This document shows, piece by piece, positions 19,306 to 27,744 of a DNA stretch of 44,831 bases. The stretch lies in assembly GCA_902799015.1 (NCBI GenBank), contig CADBZI010000025.1, forward strand, positions 1 to 44,831. Direction: 5' to 3'. The DNA comes from an uncultured Lachnospiraceae bacterium. GTDB lineage: Bacteria; Bacillota; Clostridia; Lachnospirales; Lachnospiraceae. Each line of letters begins with the position of its first letter. The first letter of the stretch is position 1. The notes beneath the pieces were generated by a model. The model made no database searches, had not been told where the DNA came from, and worked only from the letters and a program-made list of their open reading frames with translations. Made by a program: the position numbers and the translations under genes.

Positions 19306-21993
19306 ATGACAAATCGTTTGGAAAAAAGACTGACTGATCTGATCTTTGGCTCGGCTCAAGGCACAAGCATCGTGTTCTCGCTCAGCGACCTGTCTGATTT
19401 TTCGTCAATCCTGTCCGCTTTCACGGCATATGCCCGTCAGACCGGGAAGAAGATCGTGCGCATCCGTTTTGTCCCCGATGCAGATTCCTCCCCCGGGACG
19501 GCTTCTGCCCCCGGCCCGGCCTTGTCGCCTGATGTACCTTCTGTGTCTGATCCGTCTTCCGCCCCATATCCGGCCTCAGAAGACGCCTTGCGGAAAGAGA
19601 ATTCCCCTTTCTTTGAGGAGATTCCCGTCCGTCTGAATCACCGCTTCCGGCACTTTACAGTCGCTGTGCATGAGCAGATCCGGCGTCTGGAGCCGGGATG
19701 CCTGTTCGTCTTTGACTGTCTGTCCGAGCTGCAGACCGCCTGGGCAACGGACCTGATGATGGTCAATTTTTTTACCGTCACAACGCCTCTTCTGAAAAGC
19801 CGCGGCTGCGCCGCGCTGTTCCCGCTGATGGCTCTGATGCATTCCGACGAAGCCGCCGCCAAGATCACCCAGATTGCCGACTGCTTCTTCGAGGTCTGCT
19901 CTGACTTCAAGAATATCTATCTCCGGGCGGAAAAGGTTCCGGATCCGGCATCGGGAGAGCTGTATCAGCCGCATATTCTGAATGTGGAGACCGGGATGCT
20001 GACGCTGATAACGGATGGCGTAAAGCTGAGCCGCTATCACCGCGCGCAGGATATGGCCGGGCGCATCCATGCAGACCTGAGTATGGACAGCTGGGACCGC
20101 TTCTTTCTGAACGCGCAGAGAAAGTATGAATACGGAGAGGATCTTTCCGCAGAATGCACGCGTATGTGCCGTATCATGATGAGCCGTGACAGCCGTATGC
20201 GCAGCCTGATCCAGGAAAACTTCCGCCCGGGAGATTATTTCTTTGTGAAAGAGCACATGGTCGGCAGCGGACAGATCGGCGGAAAGTCCTGCGGCATGCT
20301 GACCGCACGCAAGATCATCGAGAACGGCCGTCCGGAGCTCTATGATTTCATGGAAGCTCACGATTCCTTCTATATCGGATCGGATGTATATGCCAGCTTT
20401 ATCGTGGAAAACGGTCTGTGGGACCTGTGGGTAGAGCAGCATACCAAGGAGGGTTATTTCTCCGTCTCCGGCCAGCTTTATGACGCCATCAAAAAAGGAT
20501 CCTTCTGGCCGCAGATTGAGCAGCAGTTTCTCCATCTGCTGGATTATTACGGGCAGGAGCCGGTGATTGTCCGCTCCAGCAGTATTCTGGAGGATGGATT
20601 TGACAATGCGTTCGCCGGAAAATATGAGTCTGTTTTTGTGCCGAATAACGGGACACGGAAGGAGCGGCTTGCCGCATTCGAGGACGCGGTGCGCACCGTC
20701 TACGCCAGCACCATGTCCCTCTCCGCCCTGGATTACCGCAGGCGCCGCCGTCTCGCAAGCCGGGATGAGGAGATGGCAGTCCTGGTCATGCGGGTGTCCG
20801 GCTCCCATTTCGGCAGTTATTTCATGCCCTGCGCGGCTGGTGTCGGCTACTCCTGCAGTCCCTACCGGTTCCTGGAGACCATGAATCCGCACTCCGGCAT
20901 GCTTCGCCTGGTCATGGGGCTCGGAACCTCGGCGGTAGACCGCATCGAGGGCGCCTGGCCGCGTCTGGTCAGCCTGGATGCGCCGGAGGCCACTCCCTAT
21001 CACACGGCCGCCGAAAAGCACCGTTACAGCCAGAGAAAGATCTCTCTGATCGATAAGGAGACCAATTCCTTCCGCTACGTTTCCCTGGAGGATCTGAATG
21101 CCAGCCTGCCATTCTGGCTCAGACGCGTGCTCCTGGAACACGACACGCAGGCTGAGCGTATGTTAAGAGAGCGCGGGGACAGACGAAGCGTCGAATTCAT
21201 CTCCTGCCGCGGCATCACGCAGAATCAGGAGCTGATGCACCTGATGCGGGGAATGCTGGAGGTGCTTCACGAAACCTACGGGCAGGACGTGGACATAGAG
21301 TTCACGATCAATCTGAGTGAGGACGGCGACTTTGTCGTCAATCTCCTGCAGTGCAGGCCTCTTCTTGTGCTGTCGTCCGATGCCGGTCTTTCGGAGAGCC
21401 CCCTCCCGGGTGAGGCGGGCAAGATCCTGCTGGAGACGCTGCGCTCCTCCATGGGCATGTCGCGGAATGTGAAGGTGGACGGAATCGTCTATATCGATCC
21501 TGTTGCCTACTACAGGCTGCCCTACGCAGACAAGCCGGCCGTCGCCCGAAGCCTGGGCGCACTGAACTGGTTCTTCCGGGACAAAGAAAAGACGCTGGTT
21601 CTTCTCACGCCCGGGCGCATCGGAACCTCATCCCCGGAGCTTGGCGTTCCCACTGCCTTCTCGGACATCAGTTCCTTCCGCGCGATCTGCGAAATTGCGG
21701 AATCCAAGGCAGGGTATCAGCCGGAGCTCTCCTACGGAAGCCACATCTTCCAGGATCTTGTGGAGGCGGATATCGTGTACGGCGCGGTGTTCGAAGACGA
21801 GCGGCGGGTGCAGTTTCATCCGGAGCTTCTGGAGACGCTTCCAAATGAAATCGCGAAGATCGTGCCGGACGCTGACAGCAGTGTCATCGGCTATTATGAT
21901 ATGAGCAGCCTGGGCTGCAGGCTGATTCAGGACATGCCGAAAGAGCATCTGCAGCTGGTCTGGACAGAGCCGTCCGGTCCCATCGATCCATGA
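19306..21993 (+). CDS. PEP/pyruvate-binding (PEP synthase N-domain) protein with RecA/KaiC-like N-terminus
   Basis: An 895-residue protein of unknown role. Residues 1-250 resemble a degenerate RecA/KaiC-type fold: strands SIVFSLS and KIVRIRF and a Walker-B-like CLFVFDCLSEL (132-142), but no P-loop; an inserted Pro/Ser/Ala-rich linker covers about 58-95. Residues 310-690 match the ATP-binding domain of PEP synthase/PPDK: SGQIGGKSCGML (321-332), VIVRSSSILED (420-430), AGKYESV (437-443), DVDIEFTI (661-668) and NLLQCRPLL (679-687). The phosphohistidine and TIM-barrel PEP domains are missing. Residues 765-830 hold the segment TPGRIGTSSPELGVP, FSDIS and SYGSHIFQDL, seen in stand-alone PEP/pyruvate-binding proteins. 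GGGTGA precedes the ATG. Its stop overlaps the alternative upstream ATG of the next gene. Confidence 0.8.
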   Translation: MTNRLEKRLTDLIFGSAQGTSIVFSLSDLSDFSSILSAFTAYARQTGKKIVRIRFVPDADSSPGTASAPGPALSPDVPSVSDPSSAPYPASEDALRKENSPFFEEIPVRLNHRFRHFTVAVHEQIRRLEPGCLFVFDCLSELQTAWATDLMMVNFFTVTTPLLKSRGCAALFPLMALMHSDEAAAKITQIADCFFEVCSDFKNIYLRAEKVPDPASGELYQPHILNVETGMLTLITDGVKLSRYHRAQDMAGRIHADLSMDSWDRFFLNAQRKYEYGEDLSAECTRMCRIMMSRDSRMRSLIQENFRPGDYFFVKEHMVGSGQIGGKSCGMLTARKIIENGRPELYDFMEAHDSFYIGSDVYASFIVENGLWDLWVEQHTKEGYFSVSGQLYDAIKKGSFWPQIEQQFLHLLDYYGQEPVIVRSSSILEDGFDNAFAGKYESVFVPNNGTRKERLAAFEDAVRTVYASTMSLSALDYRRRRRLASRDEEMAVLVMRVSGSHFGSYFMPCAAGVGYSCSPYRFLETMNPHSGMLRLVMGLGTSAVDRIEGAWPRLVSLDAPEATPYHTAAEKHRYSQRKISLIDKETNSFRYVSLEDLNASLPFWLRRVLLEHDTQAERMLRERGDRRSVEFISCRGITQNQELMHLMRGMLEVLHETYGQDVDIEFTINLSEDGDFVVNLLQCRPLLVLSSDAGLSESPLPGEAGKILLETLRSSMGMSRNVKVDGIVYIDPVAYYRLPYADKPAVARSLGALNWFFRDKEKTLVLLTPGRIGTSSPELGVPTAFSDISSFRAICEIAESKAGYQPELSYGSHIFQDLVEADIVYGAVFEDERRVQFHPELLETLPNEIAKIVPDADSSVIGYYDMSSLGCRLIQDMPKEHLQLVWTEPSGPIDP

Positions 21994-22001
21994 GGTGCAT
22001 T

Positions 22002-25000
22002 ATGAATGATACAGAACGCAACAATCAGATCCTGAAAGCGGTCTCCTCCATTCCCATCGAGAAGGAGGGAGCTGACCTTACGCTGGTTCCCGCTCTTTTG
22101 AAGGAGCAGCTTCAGCGCAGGATCCGGCCTGAGTTCCAGCCGGAATGGGAAGGCTGGAATGCCTATGTTCTGGCATGGCTGCTGGAAAACTTCTATCCCG
22201 GAAGACAGGAAATTGCCTGCCGCCAGGAGCGGAAGGAAGCCGTTTTATTCTATCTGGATGTGCTGAACGCGCTCTTTGAGAAGGAGGAGGCGCTCCTTGG
22301 AAAGGATCCCCTCAGGAGCCTTGTTTTTCTGGACGCGGATCAGGCACAAGGATATGACGCAAGCGCGTCCTATCTGAGGCTTCTGAAGGTTCTGAAGGAA
22401 GATTACCTGTATGCGTTTATGCGCCTGCACCGCTGTGTGACAGGCTATGAAACGCTCGGTCATATCTCCGGCGTCAGCTATATTTCCGTCTATCTTGCCA
22501 GACAGCTGCTTCAGACGGATGTCCGTGTGGATCCTGCTCTGGCAGGCGGAGCCGCGATTCTCCATGATATCGGCAAGTACGGCTGCCGCGCAGAGGAGCG
22601 CAGCCGCGTTCCCTATCTTCATTATTATTACACCTATGAGTTCGCGCAGCGCATGCACCTTGGCCAGATCGGCTCTGTTGCCTCCGCGCACTCCGTCTGG
22701 GATCTGGAGCTGGAGAATCTGAGCGTGGAGAGCCTGATCCTGATCTACGCAGACTTCAGAGTCAAGAGCATCCGGTCAAAGGACGGCACGGAGCAGGTCC
22801 GTTTCTGGACCCTGAAGGAATCCTACGACATCATTCTCGGCAAGCTCGACCATGTGAACGAGGAAAAACGCAGACGATACGCGAAGGTCTACGCAAAGCT
22901 GAAGGACTTCGAGGATTACCTGGTCTCTTTGGGGGTATCAACCGATCTGAAGAGCGGCTGGCACAAGAGCGCTCCCGGTACCCCGTATTCCCTCATGGGA
23001 ACAGGCGAGATGGTGCAGGCGTTCAAATTCCTTGCGATTTCGCAGAACCTGAAAGTAATGTACACCACCGGGCATGATGTTTCCTTCATCAGCCTTCTGG
23101 AAGACATCCGCGGAGAGAAAGACTGGCGGCATGTGCGCGCATTTCTGACGGTCATAGAGGAATACTCCGGGTATCTGACCCAGGAACAGAAGCTCGTGAT
23201 TCTCGACTTTCTCTACGAGATGCTCTCCCATCAGGACGGAGACATCCGGCGTCAGAGCGCCCGGATCTCCGCGAAGGTGATGGCCGGCTTTGATATCACA
23301 TTCAAAAAGGAGCTTCCGGAGGATGTGACTGCTCCGCGGATCGGCCGCCGGATGGTTGACGTGTGGAGTTCCTTTCTCCATCGGATGCTGTTCCCGAGCC
23401 ATATGATGACGGAGCAGCACAGACGTTGGATCGGCTATGGCATGAAGAGTGTTGTGCGCTGCCTTCTGGCCATGTGCGACGGGGCCAGGAGACGGGATGT
23501 TCTGAATGTGGTGCTGGAGCACTATAAGTCCTCGCGCTGGGAAGGCCTGACAAGATTTTTGCTTTTGGACTGCATGCCGGAGATTCCCTATTCCCTGTGC
23601 AGTGTGAACCAGCGCAAGCTTCTGTTTCGTTTCGCCAGGCAGTTTCTGGATGCGGGGGACATGGAGATCCGGGTCAGTGCCCTGCGTTTTCTCCTGTGCT
23701 GGCTCAGACAGGGCTGCGCAAAGGATGAGGAGCTGCGTACCGCCGCCCGTTCTCTGAGCACAGCCAAGGACGATCCTGTCTGCGTCCGGTATCTGACCGC
23801 TCAGATTCGCAGCCTTGTTCTGGACGAAAAGAGCGCATTTTCCTATGATGTCAAGCTTCTTTATATCGAGAATCAGCGATCTGAGATTCCATGGGTTTAC
23901 AAGCTTGTGAATCTGGAGATCCTTCAGCATGAAATGCTTCAGGAGCCGGACCTTCTGAAGGTTTACCAGTACGCTTCCCATCTCCTGAACCTGCTGCAGT
24001 TCAGCACCCGTGTTACGAACAAGCTGCAGGCCGGGGAGAATCTTGTTGAGATCATGCCCCGCCTGATGGAATCACAGCGCTACGAGATCGTTCTGGAGCT
24101 TGTGCGCGCCCTTGCCATGGGACAGTATTCCGTGGCGAAGTACATTCCCCAGTTCATGGGCCGGATCTACGTGATCATGACAGAAGATGAGCGGCGCGCG
24201 CTTCTGGAGCAGTTCCACGAGCTGTACGGGAGCCCTTCTGCCTCCGTTTCGATCCTCACGCTGGAAACCGTGAGCGTCATCCTGCAGCACCTGCCCTCTT
24301 CCGGGATCCCGGAGGAGGAAAAGCATGCGCTGGAGGGCATGCTGTTTTCCGGAACCGTGCATTTTAATGAGGAGGTCGCGCGGGAAGCGTTTTATTTCCT
24401 CGGGGAGGGGCTCTTCGGAAGCACCCGCCTTACCCTGGAGCAGAAAAAAGAATACTTTACGGCGATGGCGCGGAAGATTCTGACCTTCATTCTGTGGGAT
24501 CAGAAAACGATGCTGTGGTATTACAACGCGGCTTCCCTGAACCACATCTACCGTTTTATCTCGGATTATCTCATGGACCACGAGGCAATCGTTTTTGAAA
24601 AGCGCTCAAAGATCGCCTTCTTCCCCGGAACCTTCGATCCCTTTTCGCTGGGGCACAAGGCAATCGTCCGGGAGATTGCTTCCATGGGCTTTCATGTATT
24701 CCTTGCCGTCGACGAATTCTCCTGGTCCAAGAGCACGCAGCCTTACCGGATCCGCAGGAAGATCATGGTCATGTCGGTGGCCGATCTGAAAAATGTTTTC
24801 CTGTTCCCTGTCGAGATTCCCGTGAATATCGCCTGCCCGGAGGATTTGAAGCGTCTGAGGGAGTGCTTCCCGGACGAGGAAGTCTATATCGTCGCCGGAA
24901 GTGATGTCGTAGAACATGCCTCCGCCTACCGCGCCAAGGCGGCACCAGACTCGATCCATACCTTCCCGCATATCATATTCGCAAGGAACACAGAAGGATC

Positions 25001-26705
25001 CGGAACGTTCCGGTCCGGTTTTGAGGATGCCTTTTCCAGACTTCAGTCCGAGGTACTGTGGCTGAAGCTTCCGGCGTATTTTGAAAATATGAGTTCTACC
25101 CGCATCCGGCGCAATGTTTCGGACAACAAGGACATCGCGGATCTGGTGGAAAGCGTGGTGCAGAATTATATCTATGAGCTGGGGCTCTATACGATGGATC
25201 CCATCTACAAGCGCGCCGCCAGGACGCGTCCCGTGAATACCATCCTGGTGGAAGCGGCGGATGATGCGCTGCTGCAGGAGCTTAGGGCCGCCTTCTCTCT
25301 TTCCGAAGATGCCATCCCTGCTCCGGATCATGATCAAACCCGCTGTGTGATTCTTCGAAATGAAAACAATTCCGGCAGAATCTGCGGAGCGGTTCTCTAT
25401 CATGACCTGAGCGCGGGGGAGCTGCTTTCCTCGTGCAATGACATCGACCTGGCCGCGGATCTCAGGGACCGTCTGAGCGGAAAGACCTGCGTGATCACAC
25501 AGATTCTGGGCGAAACAGAACCCTCACGCGATGAGCGGTTTACCGCGCTGTGTGAGATGCTCGAGCACTGTCAGGAGGAAGGATATTCCTATGCGGTCTG
25601 CTTCGGCGCAAAAGCGTGGGAGAAGGTGCTGCCGCTGGTCGGCTTCACAGCGCATCCGCGCATGCCCGACTGCTTCCTGGTCGACATGAGACGTCCTATC
25701 GTTCTGTTTTTTGACACACCCTCCTTCATCAAGGATCCATTCCTGGACGAAGAGAAGATCCGGAGGGTTTTATGGAAATGCAATCAAAAGCTGCGCAGAG
25801 CAATCGCCGGTCTCTTCCCGGGCCAGCTGGTTCTGTGCTTTGACTCGGAGGTGATGAATCACCGGCTGATCGAGCTGATCGTTGCGTGCAACCCGATTCC
25901 AAAGGTCCAGTACACGGCAAAGAGGCTGGGCACCAAGATCTGTGTCCCCTACGGGAAGATTCTGAAGGGAGTTCTGGTTCCGGAGTGTGTTACAAAAGAC
26001 CTGAATACGGAGAAGCTCTATGATATCGACATGGAGCGGTTCGAGATCAGAGAATTCCCTCAGTATGCGCCTCTTGATATCCAGATCCGGACGATCAAGT
26101 CCTTCATGCGCCCTGTGATACTGGTAGATGACCTGTATCACAAAGGCTATCGTCTTGATGCGGTCCGGAAGGTCATGCGGAGCGAAGGGGTGCAGCTGGA
26201 TCAGCTGATTGTCGGCGTGCGCTCGGGGCGGGGGGATGATCTGGCCCGGGAGTCAGGAGAGCCTGCCAGGTCGGTCTACTATGTGCCGAACATGCGGTCC
26301 TGGCTGATTGAATCGGATCTGTACCCCTTTATCGGCGGAGACGGCATCCGGGTGAAGGAGCAGATCCACTCTTCTCCCTCCCTGCCCTCCGTAAACCCCA
26401 TCCTTCCCTACCAGTTCCCCTCGTTCATGAAGGGAGCTTCTATGGAAGCCTTTTACCACATGTCGGGAATCTGTCTGGAAAACGCGCGGGACATCTTCCT
26501 GACCCTGGAGAAACTGTATCAGAAAAAATACCACAGAAAACTGACCATGTCCCGCATCGGAGAGGTTCTGGCGGAACCGAGGCATCCGGATACCTGTATC
26601 CTTGACACCTCTGTCATCCAGGAATCCCCCTCTGTCCTGCTGGAGCGGGAGATGCAGAAGCTTCGCCGCCTCAAGCATCTGCTGGACGGACAGTTTCAGA
26701 TGTAA
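22002..26705 (+). CDS. Giant multidomain fusion: HD hydrolase, helical repeats, NadD-like nucleotidyltransferase, GNAT-like, PRTase-like
   Basis: About 1567 residues; the ATG at 22002 has GAGGTG 4 nt upstream and is preferred to an ATG 12 nt earlier that overlaps the previous stop (positions below count from the earlier ATG). Residues 150-260: HD domain with His158, His192-Asp193 (AILHDIGKY), His211, His234 and Asp255, so metal ligands look complete. Residues 340-860: alpha-helical, HEAT-like. Residues 873-1065: cytidylyltransferase fold of the NadD type, GTFDPFSLGHKA (880-891; Ser where NadD has its first His) and SSTRIR (1035-1040). Residues 1085-1230: GNAT-like strand/helix pattern without a clear acetyl-CoA loop. 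Residues 1235-1460: phosphoribosyltransferase-like, with PVILVDDLYHKGYRL (1375-1389) resembling the PRPP loop. No signal peptide or membrane segment. Function unknown; a nucleotide or NAD-related role is inference. Confidence 0.82.
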   Translation: MNDTERNNQILKAVSSIPIEKEGADLTLVPALLKEQLQRRIRPEFQPEWEGWNAYVLAWLLENFYPGRQEIACRQERKEAVLFYLDVLNALFEKEEALLGKDPLRSLVFLDADQAQGYDASASYLRLLKVLKEDYLYAFMRLHRCVTGYETLGHISGVSYISVYLARQLLQTDVRVDPALAGGAAILHDIGKYGCRAEERSRVPYLHYYYTYEFAQRMHLGQIGSVASAHSVWDLELENLSVESLILIYADFRVKSIRSKDGTEQVRFWTLKESYDIILGKLDHVNEEKRRRYAKVYAKLKDFEDYLVSLGVSTDLKSGWHKSAPGTPYSLMGTGEMVQAFKFLAISQNLKVMYTTGHDVSFISLLEDIRGEKDWRHVRAFLTVIEEYSGYLTQEQKLVILDFLYEMLSHQDGDIRRQSARISAKVMAGFDITFKKELPEDVTAPRIGRRMVDVWSSFLHRMLFPSHMMTEQHRRWIGYGMKSVVRCLLAMCDGARRRDVLNVVLEHYKSSRWEGLTRFLLLDCMPEIPYSLCSVNQRKLLFRFARQFLDAGDMEIRVSALRFLLCWLRQGCAKDEELRTAARSLSTAKDDPVCVRYLTAQIRSLVLDEKSAFSYDVKLLYIENQRSEIPWVYKLVNLEILQHEMLQEPDLLKVYQYASHLLNLLQFSTRVTNKLQAGENLVEIMPRLMESQRYEIVLELVRALAMGQYSVAKYIPQFMGRIYVIMTEDERRALLEQFHELYGSPSASVSILTLETVSVILQHLPSSGIPEEEKHALEGMLFSGTVHFNEEVAREAFYFLGEGLFGSTRLTLEQKKEYFTAMARKILTFILWDQKTMLWYYNAASLNHIYRFISDYLMDHEAIVFEKRSKIAFFPGTFDPFSLGHKAIVREIASMGFHVFLAVDEFSWSKSTQPYRIRRKIMVMSVADLKNVFLFPVEIPVNIACPEDLKRLRECFPDEEVYIVAGSDVVEHASAYRAKAAPDSIHTFPHIIFARNTEGSGTFRSGFEDAFSRLQSEVLWLKLPAYFENMSSTRIRRNVSDNKDIADLVESVVQNYIYELGLYTMDPIYKRAARTRPVNTILVEAADDALLQELRAAFSLSEDAIPAPDHDQTRCVILRNENNSGRICGAVLYHDLSAGELLSSCNDIDLAADLRDRLSGKTCVITQILGETEPSRDERFTALCEMLEHCQEEGYSYAVCFGAKAWEKVLPLVGFTAHPRMPDCFLVDMRRPIVLFFDTPSFIKDPFLDEEKIRRVLWKCNQKLRRAIAGLFPGQLVLCFDSEVMNHRLIELIVACNPIPKVQYTAKRLGTKICVPYGKILKGVLVPECVTKDLNTEKLYDIDMERFEIREFPQYAPLDIQIRTIKSFMRPVILVDDLYHKGYRLDAVRKVMRSEGVQLDQLIVGVRSGRGDDLARESGEPARSVYYVPNMRSWLIESDLYPFIGGDGIRVKEQIHSSPSLPSVNPILPYQFPSFMKGASMEAFYHMSGICLENARDIFLTLEKLYQKKYHRKLTMSRIGEVLAEPRHPDTCILDTSVIQESPSVLLEREMQKLRRLKHLLDGQFQM

Positions 26706-26736
26706 GAAAAGGCGTGAATCAGACAAGGAGACGACT

Positions 26737-27744
26737 ATGCATAAGATAACCGATCTGTGTTCTCAGTTCCCGTATAAGAAAGAGCGTCTGTCCTCTTACC
26801 CGTGGCTGATGGAAGATGCAGAGGATAAGAAAAGAGTTCATATCATCGGGCTTGGCGATGTGGGACAGCATGCTGCCGTGGCTTTGCGGATTGCCGGCGC
26901 TGACAGCATTTCCCGTATCGGAATCTATGACACAAATCAGAATCTGACCTCCCGCATGGAAATCGAGCTCTCTCAGATTCTCTCGCCTTTGGGGCAGATT
27001 GCATATCCTGAGATAAAAGTTTCCGGTCCCGAAAACCTGTTTGACTGCGATATCGCCTTGTTCTGCGCCACTGCTTTTGTCCCGGCGGTCGGGGAGGAAT
27101 CCAAAGGAGATGTCCGGATGGCGCAGTTTGCCAAAAATGTGCAGATCATCCGGGAGTATGCAAGACAGGCTGCAAGAGCTGAGTACAAAGGCCTCTTCGG
27201 CGTGGTTTCTGATCCGCTGGATCTTCTGTGCGCAGAAGCAGCCCGCTTCCTGCACCCGGAACAGGTGCAGGGCTTCGGGCTTGGCGTCATGTTTGCGAGA
27301 GCGGATTACTATGCCGCAAAGCGTGCTCCCAAAGATCCGCGCTTTGCGTATTTCAGACAGAGCGGACGCGTCTATGGTCCGCACGGAAACGGACTGGTTG
27401 CGGTCAACAGCATCCTGCCGCAGCATTATGACGACAGGGCAACCGAGAAGCTGACCAATCTGACGGTCGGCGCAAACATCTCGGTCCGTGCCCTCGGCTT
27501 TAAGCCTTATATTGCGCCGGGGGTCTCCTCCGTCGGGCTGACCATCCCCGAAGTCATCAAAGGACATTGGAATGACAGTGCCAGATACCTCAACGGCGTA
27601 TTCTTCGGGGCACGCAACAAGATCACTTCCTCCGGTACCAGATGGGAGAAGGAACCTCTGCCCGATGAACTGTACTACCGGCTGCGGGAAAGCTACCGCG
27701 CATTGGACAAAGCGCTGGAGGAAATTGCCCATCCGAAGGAGTAA
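26737..27744 (+). CDS. Lactate/malate dehydrogenase-like protein
   Basis: A 335-residue Rossmann protein. The NAD-binding motif GLGDVG is at 38-43 and Asp65 in IGIYD is in the position that selects NAD over NADP. The family layout is otherwise followed: substrate loop region with Arg127 in GDVRMAQFAKN, VVSDPLD (157-162) in place of VxNPVD, and GPHGNG (214-219) in place of GxHGD with His216 kept. The LDSAR motif appears as VMFAR (184-188), so the catalytic Asp seems replaced by Met while the Arg is kept. Activity as a true hydroxyacid dehydrogenase is therefore doubtful. AAGGAG lies 6 nt before the ATG. It is the third gene of the operon, 31 nt after the giant fusion. Confidence 0.78.
   Translation: MHKITDLCSQFPYKKERLSSYPWLMEDAEDKKRVHIIGLGDVGQHAAVALRIAGADSISRIGIYDTNQNLTSRMEIELSQILSPLGQIAYPEIKVSGPENLFDCDIALFCATAFVPAVGEESKGDVRMAQFAKNVQIIREYARQAARAEYKGLFGVVSDPLDLLCAEAARFLHPEQVQGFGLGVMFARADYYAAKRAPKDPRFAYFRQSGRVYGPHGNGLVAVNSILPQHYDDRATEKLTNLTVGANISVRALGFKPYIAPGVSSVGLTIPEVIKGHWNDSARYLNGVFFGARNKITSSGTRWEKEPLPDELYYRLRESYRALDKALEEIAHPKE

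Follow-up and report, generated by a model that had tools for sequence, protein, structure and literature searches.

A stretch of 44,831 nucleotides from an uncultured Lachnospiraceae bacterium (contig CADBZI010000025.1, positions 1–44,831; hereafter the window, to which coordinates refer) encodes a protein of 1571 amino acids, P2 (21990–26705, + strand), in which an HD domain, a middle region, an NMNAT/NadD-like domain, a region X and a phosphoribosyltransferase (PRTase)-like region are fused. The architecture of P2 is fixed at about 1600 residues, and across Bacillota P2 forms a conserved unit with P3, a dehydrogenase-like protein, and an iron–sulfur flavoprotein. Based on sequence, we favor, at a probability of roughly one in three, the reading that P2 is a bifunctional NAD-type nucleotidyltransferase/phosphohydrolase serving NAD-linked glutamate catabolism.

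Active-site motifs of P2

Motifs were counted over 107 P2 proteins, those of loci L061 and L096 included; proteins outside 1450–1700 amino acids, such as that of L134 (2164 amino acids), were left out. The HD domain (22455–22754, +; residues 156–255), described at first reading as having intact metal ligands, matches PF01966 (E = 8.5e-5), and the HD family was matched by 40 of the 44 members scanned. The ligands His158, His192, Asp193, His211, His234, and Asp255 are invariant in all 107 proteins, so that all six residues of the extended YqeK-type motif are in place throughout. A review (PMC8177086) treats this motif, H..HD..H..H..D, as the diagnostic mark of an HD site of the dinuclear kind, the diadenosine tetraphosphate (Ap4A) hydrolase YqeK being an example.

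The NMNAT/NadD-like domain (24597–25190, +; approximately residues 870–1067) carries GTFDPFSLGH, GSD, and SSTRIR. It matches PF01467 (CTP_transf_like; E = 7.8e-7, 29.8 bits, gathering threshold 21) and NCBIfam NadD models (E down to 6e-12, though far below their cut-offs), and was aligned by hhalign with the NadD of the same genome at 96.7% over 184 columns, in keeping with the NadD-type nucleotidyltransferase domain of the preliminary description. Two signatures, G.F.P.[H/T]..H and S.T..R, characterize the NMNAT/NadD superfamily. The first motif reads mostly GTFDPF(S/T)L(G/S)H in the P2 family and, with Ser allowed (G.F.P.[HTS]..H), is found in 105 of 107 proteins (exceptions L096 and L125); the strict form is present in only 16. 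The second is present as S.T..R in 93 proteins and as SS[TS].IR in 105 (exceptions L096 and L085). Because the HD ligands and the NMNAT motifs are kept while most P2 relatives in one alignment are only 31–36% identical to the P2 of the window, both were counted in favor of a bifunctional nucleotide enzyme.

In such an enzyme, the NMNAT/NadD-like domain would join a nucleoside triphosphate to a phosphorylated ribose compound (nicotinamide mononucleotide, nicotinic acid mononucleotide, or an analogue), the dinuclear HD domain would hydrolyze phosphoanhydrides in the same class of molecule, and P2 would thereby make and edit (or cycle) an NAD-type dinucleotide. P3 and the flavoprotein may use or reduce the P2 product or a 2-oxo acid, and the whole module would serve NAD-dependent glutamate oxidation by the neighboring glutamate dehydrogenase (GDH). 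Transferase and hydrolase are read as a pair because of the NadD–YqeK precedent: in JCVI-Syn3A, NadD is fused to an HD domain of YqeK type, which hydrolyzes wrong nicotinic acid adenine dinucleotide analogues that NadD can make (PMC9426524).

Toward the C terminus, P2 appears weakly PRTase-like. A Pfam scan of this part in 83 of 88 non-redundant members matched PF00156 (PRTase) in 26 at E ≤ 0.1, the best E value being 1.5e-4. In a separate search the Acetoanaerobium protein matched at E = 6.9e-4, and one member scored 19.4 bits against a gathering threshold of 26.3; the corresponding segment of the window's own P2 gave no match at E ≤ 0.1, and hhalign against PRTases returned short matches. 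The PRTase-like region of the window (25899–26309, +; approximately residues 1304–1440) includes VDDLYHKGYR at residues 1379–1388, of which VDDLYHKG was first described as resembling a phosphoribosyl pyrophosphate (PRPP) loop. The canonical PRPP loop was found in 0 of 107 proteins, and by sequence P2 does not show the combination of that loop with PF00156 above gathering that marks type I phosphoribosyltransferases; what stands of the earlier proposal is the weak family match. A GNAT-like part, also proposed there, was not recovered: no acetyltransferase family was matched among the 83 members at E ≤ 0.1, and hhalign against the GNAT proteins of the same genome, a weak test, gave nothing above 15%.

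P2 and the housekeeping NadD

P2 was ruled out as the housekeeping NadD because a separate NadD scoring over the curated cut-off is present in 34 of the 35 P2 genomes tested (the exception is G116). These comprise 25 of the 32 P2 genomes found in the class (seven less than 90% complete were omitted), six from the phylum search and four further genomes of the genus. In the window's genome the normal NadD scores 171.5 bits, over the cut-off, and its gene is surrounded by what we take to be HD (YqeK-like), RsfS-like, and YhbY-like genes.

The mycoplasma NadD–YqeK fusion (JCVISYN3A_0380) resembles P2 in that one protein unites a nucleotidyltransferase of NadD type with an HD hydrolase bearing the YqeK motif. 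That fusion is the NadD of its cell (PMC9426524), whereas P2 is about 1600 residues long with additional regions, falls far short of the NadD cut-off, and accompanies a separate NadD. The precedent could also be taken to mean that P2 acts in metabolite repair or as part of a stress alarmone system, either as a NadD–YqeK-like proofreader or as an NpnN/Ap4A-type hydrolase, the proximity of GDH being mere co-regulation. The biochemistry of the NadD and YqeK pair (PMC9426524) and the separate NadD enzymes, whose errors could be edited, are both consistent with this. We regard it as improbable, as a NadD gene and an adjoining YqeK-like HD gene are already present in the window's genome and as P3, the flavoprotein, and the GDH linkage would be left unexplained.

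The conserved operon

Neighboring genes were scored by tblastn in 113 loci, with five contig-repeating loci (L098, L099, L100, L118, and L175) removed. P3 lies directly downstream of P2 on the same strand in 90 of the 98 loci with enough flanking sequence; among the other eight it lies about 0.9 kb away in L159 and L161 and 5.4–5.6 kb away in L078 and L079, and it is absent from L085, L096, L126, and L168. GOGAT-like (glutamate synthase-like) genes stand between P2 and P3 in L078 and L079.

A flavoprotein of the FMN_red family is encoded within 2.6 kb downstream in 76 of 91 loci. It lies farther away in L078, L079, and L159 and on the opposite strand in L095 and L137, and is absent from the window, from five eligible loci of the same genus (L062–L066), in which P1 lies directly upstream of P2 as in the window, and from L085, L096, L126, and L168. 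When the L095 flavoprotein was searched against the genome of the window, with no positive control, no match was obtained. PF03358 (FMN_red) was matched in the two flavoproteins tested (E = 7.7e-21 and 1.2e-15), and a compact four-Cys motif is present in all 67 of 330–390 amino acids, the two features by which these proteins count as iron–sulfur flavoproteins. Unlike known members of that group, the operon flavoprotein (about 350 amino acids) has some 160 residues before FMN_red with no strong family match. Outside the class, P2–P3–flavoprotein was found in five of six loci; L237 has neither partner.

The preliminary description had grouped P2 and P3 with the upstream gene P1 as a three-gene operon. 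The neighborhood survey did not sustain this trio as the conserved, or ancestral, unit: P1 for the most part occurs in genomes that lack P2 (of 391 in the class, P1 was matched in 51 and P2 in 32) and joins P2 only in one Lachnospiraceae branch of the P2 tree (14 of 113 loci), and the constant partners are P3 and the flavoprotein. In G010, a genome of the same genus, GDH (contig positions 251668–253011), the flavoprotein (L095, 2669–3781), and P1 (3822–6395) stand in tandem on one strand, facing P2–P3, and all five genes are therefore tied together in one locus.

P3 (26737–27744, +; 335 amino acids) is an LDH/MDH-type (lactate/malate dehydrogenase-type) NAD-binding dehydrogenase-like protein, and the earlier description of it as a dehydrogenase-like NAD binder was confirmed by PF00056 (Ldh_1_N; E = 7.9e-9 in the window), matched in all 27 of the 70 non-redundant P3 proteins in which residues were read. 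The C-terminal LDH Pfam domain was matched in none of the 27. Arg127, Arg188, and His216 are invariant (27/27); on alignment to 4q3n these occupy the positions of LDH Arg109, Arg171, and His195. P3 thus shares with L-lactate/malate dehydrogenases the NAD-binding domain and these three equivalents, and differs from them in having Met185 at the Asp168 position and no C-terminal LDH match. Because this Met replaces the LDH relay Asp in 27 of 27 members, the activity of P3 is uncertain. In many lineages outside the window's genus (e.g. L061, L087, and L092) P3 is about 415 amino acids long, with an extra N-terminal stretch of about 90 residues.

The residues of P3 bear on a second alternative, in which the operon would be a side pathway of glutamate catabolism. 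Here P3 would reduce or oxidize a 2-oxo or 2-hydroxy acid of the glutamate pathway, the flavoprotein would be its electron partner, and P2 would supply a nucleotide intermediate in activated form. The invariant Arg127, Arg188, and His216, equivalents of LDH substrate-binding and catalytic residues, would suit such a role, as would L102, where genes for a GltP-type transporter, P2, P3, the flavoprotein, an aminotransferase, and GDH follow one another in a row. The Met at the Asp168 position and the match to the N-terminal LDH domain alone argue against it, no clear role is left for the HD domain of P2, and we think it an improbable account.

Linkage to glutamate dehydrogenase

The strongest contextual evidence lies just outside the stretch first described (19306–27744), where a gene divergent from P1 (17847–19196, −) encodes a GDH of 449 amino acids. 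This protein contains GFGNV...LSGPDGY and passes the cut-off of NF006929 (630.4 bits), a model named NADP-specific, and its coenzyme residues match the NAD type of C. symbiosum. According to one report (PMC3157743), Phe238/Pro262/Asp263 is the coenzyme signature of the NAD-specific C. symbiosum GDH, and the Ser type is usual in NADPH enzymes.

In 29 of the 113 loci a GDH gene lies no more than 7 kb from P2, and by rough estimate chance would be expected to place one there at about 1% of loci. The genes lie upstream on the opposite strand (13), downstream on the same strand (11), upstream on the same strand (four), or downstream on the opposite strand (one). The NAD-type signature is carried by 24 of these 29 GDHs (that of the window and 23 others), and three further GDHs, from the window's genus but on other contigs, have Ala and Ser at the coenzyme sites. 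On a FastTree phylogeny of 108 P2 proteins, in which 32 rows with short flanks were left unscored and long branches are a caution, the nearby-GDH trait (29 of 76 scored rows) needs at least five changes.

GDH was found in 46 of 47 genus and family genomes, with and without P2, and each of the 35 P2 genomes tested gave a GDH match, which exceeded the model cut-off in 24. Because most genomes with and without P2 have a GDH, its presence alone was not taken as evidence. The window GDH is the second of its genome, the other copy being on contig C39, and unlike the C. symbiosum case the NAD-type GDH of the window's genus is a second GDH beside P1–P2. A second GDH (>580 bits) is present in 11 of 13 P2 genomes of the genus versus 0 of 6 without P2 (Fisher p = 0.001, a value that ignores shared ancestry). 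Of the two P2 genomes that lack one, G015 is 70% complete and G007, with only a partial second match of 219.5 bits, is 77% complete; in G011, one of the eleven, the best match over 580 bits is off the P2 contigs and the other copy is in two pieces. Among 33 further genomes of the same family without P2, no second GDH match exceeded 500 bits, the highest being 271 bits (G370); within this set G020 has only a partial GDH match and G024 has none.

Glutamine synthetase-like genes and AsnB (over cut-off) occur in six Anaerotignum-type loci; AsnB apart, these genes and other neighbors with a glutamate theme, such as the transporter and aminotransferase genes of L102, mostly score below their family cut-offs. 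This nitrogen context recalls GlnD, which combines a pol-beta nucleotidyltransferase with HD and ACT domains. By analogy, P2 might modify a protein, for instance the GDH encoded next to it: its nucleotidyltransferase would add a nucleotide and its HD domain would remove it, according to which metabolites the PRTase-like region and region X bind. The pairing of nucleotidyltransferase and HD hydrolase in one chain, the PRPP-like site without canonical loop, the GDH linkage, the GOGAT-like genes of L078 and L079, and the glutamine synthetase-like and AsnB genes would all fit a regulator of this kind. The nucleotidyltransferase family is a different one, however: Pfam and NCBIfam profile searches gave no GlnD, PII, pol-beta nucleotidyltransferase, or ACT family match in P2. 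NadD-type enzymes are known to act on small-molecule phosphates and are not known to act on proteins, and the most constant partners of P2 are P3 and the flavoprotein, not GDH. A GlnD-like regulator is therefore judged unlikely.

Weighing the assignment

Several findings weigh against P2 as an NAD-type nucleotidyltransferase/phosphohydrolase for glutamate catabolism. At the level of the domains, the NadD equivalog TIGR00482 scores 41.7 bits on P2, far under its cut-off of 112.45, and the matches listed at P2 in other genomes also stay under the NadD cut-off; the [H/T] position of the NMNAT signature is Ser in 90 and Thr in 17 of 107 proteins; no YqeK model was matched at E ≤ 1 among NCBIfam profiles, and hhalign of the HD region against the genome's own YqeK, a weak, single-sequence test, gave nothing above 15%. 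In P3, Met185 at the Asp168 position leaves the protein short of the full LDH/MDH residue set. As to context, L126, L168, and L237 lack both P3 and the flavoprotein, and L085 and L096 lack both and have damaged NMNAT motifs. GDH is near P2 in only about a quarter of loci, two of the 29 linked GDHs are of the Ser type and three belong to another subfamily, and the sole GDH beside P1 in a P2-less genome (L201) is of the Ser type.

The giant protein, the redox cluster, and the NAD-type GDH suggest a so-far-undescribed NAD-related step in glutamate fermentation. A more specific version, which we advance only tentatively and consider rather unlikely, is that P2, P3, and the flavoprotein make up an undescribed pathway of anaerobic Bacillota. 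Such a pathway would make, edit, or recycle a dinucleotide reserved for NAD-linked fermentation of glutamate, either a non-canonical one of NAD type or a signaling dinucleotide; within P2 the HD and NMNAT-like sites would act in opposition to each other, and the PRTase-like region would provide or sense a ribosylated precursor. As for the initial suggestion that the operon may produce, sense, or degrade a molecule related to NAD or to dinucleotides, the HD/NadD-type core and the NAD-like theme held, the three genes as a unit did not, and the suggestion stays no more than the best guess.

No description of P2 or of the gene set was found in the open-access literature, most subscription papers being outside the reach of the search. 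The catalytic pair belongs to a known type; to judge from this search, the architecture, partners, and context are new. The fixed architecture, the conserved redox operon, and the GDH linkage suggest that the energy metabolism of anaerobes in gut and sediment includes a step not yet assigned. Were P2 to make or edit an NAD-type dinucleotide, glutamate fermentation would have an added layer of cofactor control, and the travel of catabolic GDH copies with P2 would be explained. The NadD-like domain of P2 also invites misannotation as a housekeeping NadD.

Distribution of P2

Within the window's genus a true P2 homologue is present in 13 of 19 genomes, that of the window included; the raw tally of the genus-level search, 29 of 61 genomes, includes weak matches to ordinary NadD. 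In the class, P2 was matched in 32 of 391 genomes at E ≤ 1e-20. When two short patterns were run against a collection of 84,980 species genomes, at least 575 stretches encoding P2 relatives were found, of which the best 80 were kept. Carriers among the matches listed are Anaerotignum, Anaerovorax, Sedimentibacter, Geosporobacter, Emergencia, Pseudoflavonifractor, many Lachnospiraceae, and one metagenome-assembled genome of Spirochaetes. A profile of the C-terminal third of P2 matched eight of 398 phylum genomes, all eight in open frames of 1573–1667 amino acids; as these are full length, no stand-alone relative of the C-terminal third was seen in the 398.

Six short patterns gave no match in viral contigs, and the plasmid collection gave one match, in an Acetoanaerobium record of chromosome size. 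This record (L061, NZ_CP154629.1; 2.63 Mb, Acetoanaerobium noterae DSL2) is filed as plasmid pTPELB2, with four annotated features in the PLSDB table. A role in anti-phage defense was set aside, given the negative viral contigs and a PADLOC search that matched neither P1 nor P2 and gave for P3 only two weak E1–E2 matches (E 0.03). L085 (genome G214) and L096 (G257) are divergent second P2 copies in genomes with another P2; the NMNAT motif of L096 reads TDIFDPFTTVH, and SS[TS].IR is missing from both.

P1

P1 (19306–21993, +; 895 amino acids) is a PPDK_N protein with a PEP synthase-type ATP-grasp domain (PEP, phosphoenolpyruvate) and no swiveling-His domain. PF01326 (PPDK_N) covers residues 323–691 (E = 4.6e-41) and was matched by all 23 aligned family members. 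Neither a phosphohistidine nor a PEP-binding domain was matched in P1, which places it, with PPDK_N alone, outside PEP synthase and PPDK (pyruvate phosphate dikinase) and agrees with its initial description as a PEP synthase ATP-grasp protein without phosphotransfer domains. The KaiC-like front described alongside found no such backing: no KaiC/RecA Pfam match was obtained in the 23 members and Walker A is present in none, though a Walker-B-like stretch is present in all 23.

The P1 matches in the class include some through a longer paralogue, and the sole entries common to the P1 and P2 lists are the genome of the window and a weak match, G214. Mutual exclusion of the two genes was considered and set aside, the low overlap carrying no significance figure. 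The P1 family (L188–L207; PPDK_N behind a front that lacks Walker A) is found in many Clostridia that have no P2, and none of its neighbors is constant; the commonest, an ABC-ATPase-type gene, is shared by seven of 20 loci. In L201 (7909–11997), from a genome without a P2 match, P1 adjoins the Ser-type GDH, with an apparent amino-acid ABC transporter downstream.

Reading frames in the window

P1, P2, and P3 were first described as closely spaced or overlapping genes, each with a ribosome site. The frames are open, all on the + strand and tightly spaced, P1 and P2 overlapping by ATGA and P2 and P3 being separated by 31 bases. Because third-position GC content is high (0.71, 0.70, and 0.63, respectively) and all three proteins have homologues in other genomes, chance open reading frames were excluded and the genes are taken as real. 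The ribosome sites stood in part: that of P1 is weak (GGTGA), a possible alternative P2 start at 22002 sits behind GAGGTG, and the likeliest start of P3 is 26737, preceded by AAGGAGA, rather than the TTG at 26602.

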